From contig NZ_SPHL01000003.1 of the NCBI RefSeq assembly GCF_005844425.1, positions 1-64,000 of the forward strand: a stretch of 64,000 nucleotides of DNA, written 5' to 3'. A model generated the notes under the pieces. The model saw only the letters and a list, made by a program, of their open reading frames with translations, was not told where the DNA came from and made no database searches. The stretch is from Anaerofustis stercorihominis (GTDB taxonomy: Bacteria; Bacillota; Clostridia; Eubacteriales; Anaerofustaceae). The position numbers were made by a program, and so were the translations under genes. The first letter of the stretch is position 1. The number at the start of each line of letters is the position of its first letter. Of this stretch, positions 46,444-50,262 are shown piece by piece.

Positions 46444-46481
46444 TAAAAAAAGAACCGAGAAATTAAAATTCTCTCGGCTCT
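46444..46481 (-). terminator. Terminator overlapping the alr 3' end
   Basis: On the minus strand, AGAGCCGAGA pairs with TCTCGGTTCT (one G-U), followed by T7. The alr stop (46463-46465) is inside the loop and the last codons form the 5' arm. Confidence 0.75.
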
Positions 46482-47590
46482 GAATTTAAAATATATTCTC
46501 TTTTTACTCTTTTGTTTATACAACATAAAAGCTCATAAGGAATTGTTTCACATAATATAGCTAAATCTGAAACACTTATATTTTCTCCAAATATTTCAAC
46601 GCTATCTCCTATGTTTATGTCTGCATCCATAGGAATTTCAAGCATTGTCATATCCATACATACGTTTCCTATTACACTACATTCATATTTACCATTAACA
46701 AGAACCTTTCCTTTGTTTGAAAGCTTTCTGTTATATCCGTCTGCATACCCTACACACATTACGGCAACTCTTGTTTTTTTATCAGCTGTAAAAGTTCTTC
46801 CATAACCTATGGTTTCTCCTTTTTCCACTGTAAAAATATTGCTTATGCTTGTGTGAAAAGACATAACAGGTTTATAAGGATTAATCTCGGGTTTAATCTC
46901 TGAAGGATAAATTCCATAAAGAACAATACCAGCTCTTACACCATCAAGATAATATTCATCTAAATCAGTTATCGCGGCAGAATTTGCTATGTGTTTTATT
47001 TTTATGTCAAAGCCATATTCTTTAGCTTTATTTATTGCATATTCAAATATTTCATATTGCATTTTGCTATAAGTTTTATCAACTTCGTCACTTGTTGCAA
47101 AATGAGAAAAAATTCCTTCAAATTCAAGATTTGTAAGCTCCTTTAAAGCGGCAAAAGCACTGTCAATTTCATGCTTTTTAAATCCAAGTCTGTTCATGCC
47201 TGTATTAATTTTAATATGTACCCTTGCTTTTGTATTGTTTTTTAAAGCTTCTTCATTTAATTTCTTTGCAAAATCAAGATTGTATATTGCAGGAATAATA
47301 TTATTTTCTAAAATTTTATTAATCTTTCTATCCGGAACATAACCAAGTATTAATATATCACTGTCAATACCATACTCTCTTAGACACATAGCTTCATACA
47401 CACTGGAAACAGCAAATAAATCAGCTCCTTCTTCCATTAGAACTTTTGCACATATTTCTGCACCGTGTCCGTATGCATCAGCTTTAATTACAGGTATTAC
47501 TTTTTTATCTCCAACTTTATTTTTTATTACTCTGTAATTATTAATTAAATTATCTAAATTTATCTTTACACCCGTTTGAAATCTTTCCAT
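46463..47590 (-). CDS. alr: Alanine racemase
   Basis: The 375-residue PLP enzyme has the lysine motif PVIKADAYGHG (Lys36), IKINTGMNRLGF near 128, HIANSAA near 200 and GYADGYNRKLS with the second catalytic tyrosine region near 265. It makes D-alanine for peptidoglycan. ATG 47590 is chosen; a TTG two codons upstream is closer to the GGAG site and remains possible. A DnaA-box cluster lies immediately upstream. Confidence 0.95.
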   Translation of the reverse strand: MERFQTGVKINLDNLINNYRVIKNKVGDKKVIPVIKADAYGHGAEICAKVLMEEGADLFAVSSVYEAMCLREYGIDSDILILGYVPDRKINKILENNIIPAIYNLDFAKKLNEEALKNNTKARVHIKINTGMNRLGFKKHEIDSAFAALKELTNLEFEGIFSHFATSDEVDKTYSKMQYEIFEYAINKAKEYGFDIKIKHIANSAAITDLDEYYLDGVRAGIVLYGIYPSEIKPEINPYKPVMSFHTSISNIFTVEKGETIGYGRTFTADKKTRVAVMCVGYADGYNRKLSNKGKVLVNGKYECSVIGNVCMDMTMLEIPMDADINIGDSVEIFGENISVSDLAILCETIPYELLCCINKRVKREYILNSEPREF

Positions 47591-47667
47591 TTTCAAATTA
47601 CTCCATAATATTCATTTTTTGATAAAATTTTACAAAATATAATGAATTTGTTATCTTTTCTACAAAT

Positions 47668-47828
47668 TTATACACATATCAACAGACTTATCCACAGTTT
47701 TCCACAATTATTCACATTTAAAAGTACTTATTTTAAGGGATTTTGTCTATTTTATACACATGAATTATCAACAATTTTATTATATTTTACATTGATGATG
47801 TTTAAAAATCCACAAAAAATGTTGATAA
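47668..47828 (+). other. DnaA-box cluster (possible oriC-like or DnaA-titration locus)
   Basis: In 161 bp there are a perfect TTATCCACA (47688-47696) and near matches TTATACACA (47668), TTTTCCACA (47698), TTATTCACA (47708), TTATACACA (47752), TTATCAACA (47765) and TGTTGATAA (47820, reverse). Three boxes are spaced by exactly 10 bp, and box 1 is 20 bp before them. The flanks are very AT-rich. No dnaA or dnaN gene is nearby. Confidence 0.8.
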
Positions 47829-47864: not shown

Positions 47865-48869
47865 TTACAATTTTAAGTCAGGATTTGCATTTAAAATCAG
47901 ACTGTCTTTTTTGTTATTTATATAATTAAAATATCCACTACATCCAATCATTGCAGCATTGTCCGTACAATAAACTTTATCAGGAATAAATAATTCTATG
48001 CCTTCTTCTTCGCATCGTTTTTTTAGTTCATTTCTCAGCATATCGTTACAAAGAACTCCACCACCGACACAAAGTGTCTTCATATTTTCTTTTTTCAGTG
48101 CTAACATTGTTTTATTTACTATTGTATCTACAACACATCTGTTAAAGCTTGCACAAACATTGTCTATGTTAATCTCTTCATTTTTCATTTTCTTACTATT
48201 TAAATAGTTAAGTACCGCACTTTTTAGTCCACTAAAACTAAAATCAAGATTATCCTTACCCATCATAACAATAGGAAAATCAATGCTGTGTTCATCTCCT
48301 TGTTTTGCATGCTTATCTATTTGAACTCCTCCCGGATAAGAAAGTCCAAGGCTTCTTGCAACCTTATCAAAAGCTTCCCCCGCAGCATCATCTTTAGTAG
48401 AACCAAGAAGTTCGAAATCAGTATAGCTATTAACCTTTGTTATATTTGTGTGTCCTCCGCTTGCCGTTAAACATACAAAAGGAGGTTTTGCACCCATAAG
48501 AAAACTTGCGCTTATATGCCCTGCCATATGGTTTACACCAACTAAGTCTTTATTTAAACTAAAAGCAAGAGCTTTTGCATAAGATAAACCTATAAGTAAA
48601 GCTCCAACAAGCCCTGGTCCTGTGGTAACGCTTATAAAATCAATATCATCAAAAGTTACACCTGCATCTGATAGTGCTTTATCTACAACACTTGAAATCT
48701 TCATTAAATGATTTCTAGATGCAATTTCCGGAACAACCCCTCCGTAAACTTTATGAATATCAATTTGTGTATGAATTACGTTTGACCTAACTTTTATACC
48801 GTCTTCAACAACTGCAACACTTGTTTCGTCACAGGAAGTTTCAATCGCTAAAGTTAAAATACTACTCAT
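47865..48869 (-). CDS. tsaD: tRNA t6A37 threonylcarbamoyltransferase TsaD
   Basis: The 334-residue Kae1/Qri7-type protein has LAIETSCDETSVAVV at the start, the metal motif HMAGHISASFL (His-x3-His) near 109, PFVCLTASGGHT, GEAFDKVARSLGLSYPGG near 165 and a C-terminal NAAMIGCSG. It transfers the threonylcarbamoyl group to A37 of ANN-decoding tRNAs. Its start overlaps the end of the bactofilin-like gene by 8 bp. Last gene of tsaE-tsaB-rimI-x-tsaD. Confidence 0.97.
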   Translation of the reverse strand: MSSILTLAIETSCDETSVAVVEDGIKVRSNVIHTQIDIHKVYGGVVPEIASRNHLMKISSVVDKALSDAGVTFDDIDFISVTTGPGLVGALLIGLSYAKALAFSLNKDLVGVNHMAGHISASFLMGAKPPFVCLTASGGHTNITKVNSYTDFELLGSTKDDAAGEAFDKVARSLGLSYPGGVQIDKHAKQGDEHSIDFPIVMMGKDNLDFSFSGLKSAVLNYLNSKKMKNEEINIDNVCASFNRCVVDTIVNKTMLALKKENMKTLCVGGGVLCNDMLRNELKKRCEEEGIELFIPDKVYCTDNAAMIGCSGYFNYINNKKDSLILNANPDLKL

Positions 48870-50262
48870 CTTCTTTATCCTCTTTTTTATTTATATCTTC
48901 AGTTTCTTCTTGTTTTTCATTATCATCATTTTCTTTTAGAGTTTCTTCTCTTTTTCTCATTGCTTCTTCAAATTTTCTGCTTTTCATTTGTTCAAATTTT
49001 TGTTTAGTTCTGATTATATCTTCTCTGCTGTCATTAATACTCATTAGTGTTATATATTCTGTCTTTTCCCTTTTCATTTGGAAACGCAAATATAGTGAAA
49101 CAAGCATTACAATGCTTCCTATTCCTATTAAATTAAATACAAATATAATAAGTGAACTTAATATACCTATAGACAAAAATTCCAATGCAAGCAGAATAAA
49201 CACACCAGTAAGCATTTTACTAGATAATTTTTGACCTTTTACAAAAAGTCCGCCAATAACAAGAGCCGTTGGAATAGTTGCAATATAAGTTAAGTTAAAA
49301 TATAAACTTAACAAATGAAGCGCAACCGGAATGCCGACAACTGTCATTATTAATATAAACATAAGAGGAGTTATTACAAGCATTGTAAGAGCCCCCATGC
49401 TTAAACATTTTAAAATATTTCTTCTTGCAAATATCTCTACTTTTAAAGCACTTATAGGGAATAATTTTATAAGAATTAAGCCTATGATTAAAATTGTTAT
49501 CTTGCTTAAATTATTATAATATCCAAGAAAATCTGCAAACACACTGCTATCAGAAGTCGTAATGCTTTGAGGAATATTAAGACCTAAATCTTTTTTTTCT
49601 ACTCCTCCTTTTATCTTGCTTTCTTTTGTCTTAACTATAGGATTTTCACTTTCATATATAAGTTTACCTTCTATCTCAGCTTCTTTTCCTATTACAAGTT
49701 CATTACATCCAACCTTAACATCACCATTTATTTTACTGTTAATTGTTACGCTATCCCCAACAATAAAAACATTTCCGTTAACAGTTCCTTTTAAAAGAAC
49801 ATCATCCACAAATACATTTACATCTTCTTTTATAAATGTTTTTTCGTTTGTAATTAATTTATCTCCATATACAATTAAATCACCGTTTATTGTAGCATTA
49901 TTTAGATATAAATTATTATAAAAGCCTATTAAATCTTTATTGATTGTACCTGTAGAATTAAATTCAGGTGAAAATGATATAACACTTCCATCAATGTATC
50001 CCTTATTTTCCATATTGCTTGTAAGTGCTATTACATTACCGTTTATCTTTCCTTCATTTACTATATTTGTATAAACTCCCATAAAAATGGATTTATCATA
50101 TGTATCTTTTTTATTTAATGAAAAAAAGGTTCTTGTTGTATTTGTTTTTTTTTCTTCTGTCCCATCAGTTTTTGATGCAGCAAGAATAAATGAAGGCACC
50201 ATACAAAGTACCAATATAATTAATATAAAAATATTTATCTTATTCTTAAATTTTTTTGTCAT
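48862..50262 (-). CDS. Bactofilin-like polymer-forming membrane protein
   Basis: The 466-residue protein has a signal-like N-terminus (about 10-28). About 150 residues of short beta repeats follow, resembling bactofilin/polymer-forming domains (GKINGNVIALTSN, GYIDGSVISFS, ATINGDLIVYGD, GTVNGNVFIVGD, SKINGDVKVG). Then come four or five membrane helices (about 250-400) and a long charged acidic tail. It probably forms an extracytoplasmic beta-helix tied to the membrane. It lies inside the t6A operon and overlaps tsaD. The reason for this placement is unknown. Confidence 0.75.
   Translation of the reverse strand: MTKKFKNKINIFILIILVLCMVPSFILAASKTDGTEEKKTNTTRTFFSLNKKDTYDKSIFMGVYTNIVNEGKINGNVIALTSNMENKGYIDGSVISFSPEFNSTGTINKDLIGFYNNLYLNNATINGDLIVYGDKLITNEKTFIKEDVNVFVDDVLLKGTVNGNVFIVGDSVTINSKINGDVKVGCNELVIGKEAEIEGKLIYESENPIVKTKESKIKGGVEKKDLGLNIPQSITTSDSSVFADFLGYYNNLSKITILIIGLILIKLFPISALKVEIFARRNILKCLSMGALTMLVITPLMFILIMTVVGIPVALHLLSLYFNLTYIATIPTALVIGGLFVKGQKLSSKMLTGVFILLALEFLSIGILSSLIIFVFNLIGIGSIVMLVSLYLRFQMKREKTEYITLMSINDSREDIIRTKQKFEQMKSRKFEEAMRKREETLKENDDNEKQEETEDINKKEDKEDE

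Follow-up and report, generated by a model that had tools for sequence, protein, structure and literature searches.

Within the window, by which we mean the whole stretch of 64,000 nucleotides that was analysed, a run of genes lying entirely on the minus strand has the order tsaE-tsaB-rimI-(an unnamed gene of 466 aa)-tsaD-alr-groES-groEL, in which rimI is a name given by position to a 147-aa acetyltransferase. A dense cluster of DnaA boxes, the binding sites of the replication initiator DnaA, lies between tsaD and alr. The features of this region are as follows.

46463-47596, minus strand: alr (alanine racemase; Pfam Ala_racemase N and C), which follows the cluster in this genus
47668-47828, no strand assigned: tsaD-type DnaA-box cluster (core), seven sites with 0-1 mismatch to TTATCCACA
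47668-47676, plus strand: DnaA box TTATACACA, first member of an 8-12 triplet, kept in congeners G001 and G002
47676-47684, plus strand: weak DnaA-box-like site ATATCAACA with 2 mismatches, central member of the 8-12 triplet, kept in the congeners
47688-47696, plus strand: exact DnaA box TTATCCACA, third member of the triplet, kept in the congeners
47698-47706, plus strand: DnaA box TTTTCCACA, 10 bp past 47688, kept in the congeners
47708-47716, plus strand: DnaA box TTATTCACA, 10 bp past 47698, absent from G001 and G002
47752-47760, plus strand: DnaA box TTATACACA, not kept in the congeners
47765-47773, plus strand: DnaA box TTATCAACA, kept in the congeners
47806-47814, plus strand: weak box-like site AAATCCACA with 2 mismatches, beside the inverted box, AAATCCACG in the congeners
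47820-47828, minus strand: inverted DnaA box TTATCAACA, kept in the congeners
47865-48869, minus strand: tsaD (t6A synthase subunit, a tRNA-modification gene; gcp of B. subtilis; Pfam TsaD 1.8e-94; TIGR03723)

All seven sites that the preliminary description had reported in these 161 bp are present at their positions with 0-1 mismatch, and the plus strand carries six; the sequence also bears out the exact 10-bp steps between the boxes at 47688, 47698 and 47708. Relative to tsaD, this amounts to six boxes on the opposite strand and one on the same strand, 36-188 bp behind the gene. The surroundings are AT-rich, as had been noted: the tsaD-alr intergenic region (268 bp) has a GC content of 18.7%. 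The 8-12 triplet of the window (47668, 47676 and 47688) exists only if the two-mismatch site ATATCAACA is counted, and the same 8-12 layout occurs in the uncultured Eubacteriaceae bacterium L194 and in families f38 and f47. No Rfam match indicated an RNA element at the cluster, and no intrinsic terminator was detected in the gap from tsaD to alr. The 466-aa gene (48862-50262), which lies between rimI and tsaD in the genus, overlaps the start of tsaD by a few bases and has a weak bactofilin match that is below the cut-off.

Base composition can be ruled out as the cause of the cluster, because none of 20,000 dinucleotide shuffles of the intergenic region reached the observed seven sites, the mean being 0.20. 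Other 161-bp stretches of the window hold at most two sites, and when the whole window was shuffled (n = 200) the maximum never exceeded four sites per stretch. The concern that box density might merely follow AT content is thereby removed.

The boxes are also conserved in close relatives, a second point on which the earlier reading had been left to depend. The same core is found between tsaD and alr in all three available members of the genus, while the intervening sequence has diverged. In the aligned tsaD-alr gaps, the blocks that are set off from the diverged sequence around them are TTATACACATATCAACA, TTATCCACAGTTTTCCACA (its final base masked by a gap in the alignment), AATTATCAACA and AATCCAC..AAAAATGTTGATAAT. 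TTATCCACAGTTTTCCACA has exactly two copies per genome in these three members, one behind tsaD and the other behind a patatin-like gene. The closest named relative by TsaD, the uncultured Eubacteriaceae bacterium L194 (74% identity), carries the cluster, and Anaerofustis stercorihominis L195, with a TsaD identity of 63%, lacks it. A separate observation concerns the second cluster of the genus, which lies behind the patatin-like gene in all three members (G000:C6:37107-37144, in L048, for the window's genome G000; L050; L053). Its layout in G000 is TTATCCACA-19-TTATCCACA-10-TTTTCCACA, and the gene after it differs, being glnS in G000 and an operon with an FAD-dependent oxidoreductase in G002.

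To place the cluster in a wider frame, the TsaD loci of 299 genomes were ranked by TsaD score only, with boxes disregarded, and the 400 bp behind tsaD were read in the 110 best loci with sequence taken plus the window (111 genomes), a top-of-list sampling that may favour typical genomes. In this set, 310 boxes lie on the strand opposite to tsaD versus 34 on the same strand, and 58 of the 111 genomes have at least three opposite-strand boxes. At the family level, 34 of 59 families include a genome with at least three boxes, and 19 of 59 have no opposite-strand box at all. The same threshold of at least three boxes was reached in only 2/111 control stretches inside the end of tsaD, 1/102 stretches 1.0-1.4 kb further on, 0/28 groEL 3' ends and 0/2,220 shuffled windows. 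An independent genome-wide scan for close box pairs points to the same place: among 98 listed pairs from 48 genomes with a placed tsaD, 29 (in 26 genomes) sit behind tsaD at a distance of 67-815 bp, each of them on the strand opposite to the gene. The 26 genomes with both tsaD and dnaA placed have 18 pairs at tsaD, 10 close to dnaA and 26 in other places. Eighteen genomes added later, some of them chosen as box carriers, were excluded from the 111-genome and family counts and included in the spacing and next-gene lists given below. Conservation was counted per genome and per family rather than on a tree, a count that does not separate one ancestral cluster from repeated gain. A cluster of at least three boxes is missing in about 40% of the sampled families and is therefore dispensable. 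Among the loci examined, it is absent from Peptostreptococcaceae, Lactobacillales and several rumen lineages, as well as from Anaerofustis, other genera of the window's family and parts of its order. In the open-access literature we found no report of phylum-wide conservation, nor of tsaD/gcp with DnaA boxes in other genera.

The arrangement of the boxes recurs together with their position. Where a locus has at least three boxes, two of them are most often 9, 12 or 21 bp apart, separations present in 33, 29 and 24 family groups, respectively (each named locus taken as its own group). A typical layout runs box-9-box-12-box and, after about 43 bp, box-9-box, and there is often a 12-9 triplet close to tsaD. 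This layout occurs in Bacilli as well (Pullulanibacillus pueri, L212). The window fits this layout loosely, with a weak middle box in its triplet and remaining distances of 10, 10, 44 and 13 bp that are off the pattern common in relatives. A 10-bp spacing as a general rule was thus rejected, since 9 and 12 bp dominate in other genomes. Spacing as a mark of tsaD loci only was likewise rejected, since distances of 12 and 9 bp occur at sampled dnaA loci too, there with mixed orientation.

What follows the boxes is far less constant. They lie almost entirely within the gap ahead of the next gene, which is codirectional at 66 loci and convergent at 11, and this gene varies among families (radical SAM, lgt, 5-FCL, alr, murC, ABC-F and others; names except alr were read by eye from translated starts, with no Pfam scan). 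A convergent ABC-F gene comes next in f85, f100 and Pullulanibacillus L212, which is the gcp-ydiF layout of B. subtilis and agrees with the established naming of gcp as tsaD. Because both the neighbouring gene and the distance from the origin vary, the element goes with tsaD.

This variation bears directly on the proposal that the cluster regulates alr. In such a scenario, boxes 78-238 bp upstream of the alr start would act as a DnaA operator that ties the supply of cell-wall precursor to the DnaA level. The cluster does lie inside the upstream region of alr, it overlaps -35/-10-like sites on the strand of alr, though shuffles contain as many, and other DnaA clusters of B. subtilis do regulate genes (PMC8203912). 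However, among the loci read, alr comes next only in the window's genus and in L194; elsewhere the next gene differs or converges and the cluster persists. Moreover, gcp and ydiF are unnamed among the eight directly DnaA-regulated gene sets of B. subtilis listed in a 2021 review (PMC8203912). Because the cluster keeps its place behind tsaD whichever gene a family has next to it, it is not mainly an alr operator. The suggested control of alr does not hold as a conserved role, and we consider the operator improbable as an explanation, although the boxes may have a local side effect on alr.

It would be tempting to see a replication origin in such a cluster, given its oriC-like box density and AT-rich flank, and a secondary or relocated origin had indeed been suggested. 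The bipartite oriC of Bacillota (rpmH-dnaA-dnaN) shares with the tsaD cluster the TTATCCACA boxes and their neighbours at 9 and 12 bp; however, it flanks dnaA with boxes in mixed orientation, as at the sampled dnaA loci, whereas the tsaD cluster is far off and nearly one-way. As had been stated, dnaA is away from the cluster: the window contains no dnaA, and in this draft genome of 85 contigs the gene is on another contig (G000:C49:5970-7355), together with dnaN (named from place and sequence) and with its own DnaA boxes upstream. Also in line with the earlier account, gene orientation does not switch at the cluster, and the GC skew of the window is negative on either side of it without a switch. 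In the congener G002, one contig carries both dnaA (714 kb) and the cluster (275 kb), 440 kb apart. In 20 stretches sampled from this genome, the skew has mostly negative values left of dnaA, noisy ones close to the gene and positive ones past about 850 kb, and is clearly negative at both flanks of the cluster; gene strand and skew turn near dnaA at 714 kb, not at 275 kb. Since the skew is negative on both sides and dnaA is 440 kb away in G002, the cluster is not the main origin, a role that we regard as ruled out. In addition, tsaD is 238-1,443 kb from dnaA in seven single-contig relatives, and the distance from dnaA spans 0.15-0.94 of a chromosome arm. Taken with the separate dnaA-dnaN contig and its own boxes, these results speak against the suggested secondary or relocated origin, which we now deem extremely improbable. 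In this genus, the boxes upstream of dnaA (L049:7407-7585) are few, off consensus (TTATTCACA, TTATCAACA, TTATCCATA) and weaker than the tsaD set. The DnaA of the organism is normal and has its helix-turn-helix domain.

The cluster resembles most closely the gcp-ydiF region of B. subtilis, which likewise lies directly behind tsaD (gcp), outside oriC, and contains many boxes, but the window has alr in place of ydiF and seven boxes versus ten, and binding is known from B. subtilis only. The other B. subtilis clusters (ywlC, presumably at another t6A gene, tsaC/Sua5; yqeG-sda; ywcI-vpr; yydA; the trmE region) are also extra-origin, and six clusters jointly damp initiation; however, they mostly sit at promoters of regulated genes and not at the 3' end of tsaD. 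The gcp-ydiF region (region 4, 10 sites) binds ATP-DnaA with a Kd of 0.15 uM, gave 16-fold more recovered DNA with ATP-DnaA than with ADP-DnaA at 55 nM, and belongs to the eight regions with the strongest in vitro binding of DnaA, a set that is identical to the one found in vivo (PMC4447404). As reported in two articles, B. subtilis without six extra-origin clusters initiates early, and the return of one gives partial relief (PMC5295017, PMC13220808; Okumura 2012 as cited in review). The effect of single B. subtilis clusters has been reviewed as limited, and significant regulatory clusters as unidentified (PMC5295017).

By analogy with B. subtilis, we therefore favor the view that the cluster is of the gcp (tsaD) type, and that it likely sequesters DnaA and damps initiation. 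The idea of DnaA titration put forward in the preliminary description is strongly supported by this comparison, which narrows it to the gcp(tsaD)-ydiF position specifically. The cluster is thus probably an ancient brake or sink for replication start rather than an origin, where we infer both that DnaA binds in this organism and that the cluster acts as a sink. Several DnaA molecules would bind head to tail, cooperatively, on the mostly one-way array behind tsaD, which, by analogy with B. subtilis, would prefer ATP-DnaA, and this DnaA would be kept from oriC. Passage of a fork would double the array and free DnaA would drop, and as array copy number would rise with each passage, early or repeated initiation would be damped. 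A high-affinity sink at tsaD set against weak boxes at the origin would fit such titration. Some points nevertheless count against the sink: the cluster is dispensable, a pure sink needs no fixed polarity or spacing, and a strict timing role would not predict the wide range of distances from dnaA. The constant polarity and spacing are suggestive of an ordered filament, and this could be relevant to the preference for ATP-DnaA.

Alternatively, the one-way array could be an active switch, in which a defined ATP-DnaA filament alters DnaA activity, as a Bacillota counterpart of datA/DARS, perhaps adjusted by read-through transcription of the tsaD operon. The fixed polarity and the 9/12/21-bp spacing exceed what a sink needs, and the strong ATP-DnaA preference in B. 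subtilis (PMC4447404) is in keeping with such a role. A strict intrinsic terminator separates tsaD from the cluster in only 3/77 loci, but the strict scan found few in cluster-negative loci too. E. coli datA, an extra-origin DnaA cluster with a negative effect on initiation, is located downstream of a tRNA operon whose read-through controls it (PMC10950094), which likens it to the tsaD cluster; however, datA requires IHF and promotes DnaA-ATP hydrolysis, its gene context differs, and B. subtilis has no IHF, no Hda homologues and no datA/DARS loci (PMC13220808). Furthermore, spacings of 9 and 12 bp are frequent at oriC too and may therefore reflect general DnaA packing. We consider an active switch rather unlikely. 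A broader version is more doubtful still, namely that the cluster is an ancient structured Bacillota element, the counterpart of datA, whose filament would be set by read-through from the t6A operon and would couple translation capacity to initiation.

Returning to the sink that we favor, if place, strand and spacing are kept in dozens of families, the cluster is probably under selection, and would be the natural candidate for a control site outside the origin that Bacillota have in common. The 3' side of tsaD also offers a practical handle for locating and deleting the cluster in any carrier.

In other families (L383-L387, L394, L396), a recurrent box pair was seen near hpf-like (ribosome hibernation factor) and comFC-like genes, or near a comFC-like gene and one for an amino-acid-binding protein (names read by eye), and this is possibly a second conserved cluster site.
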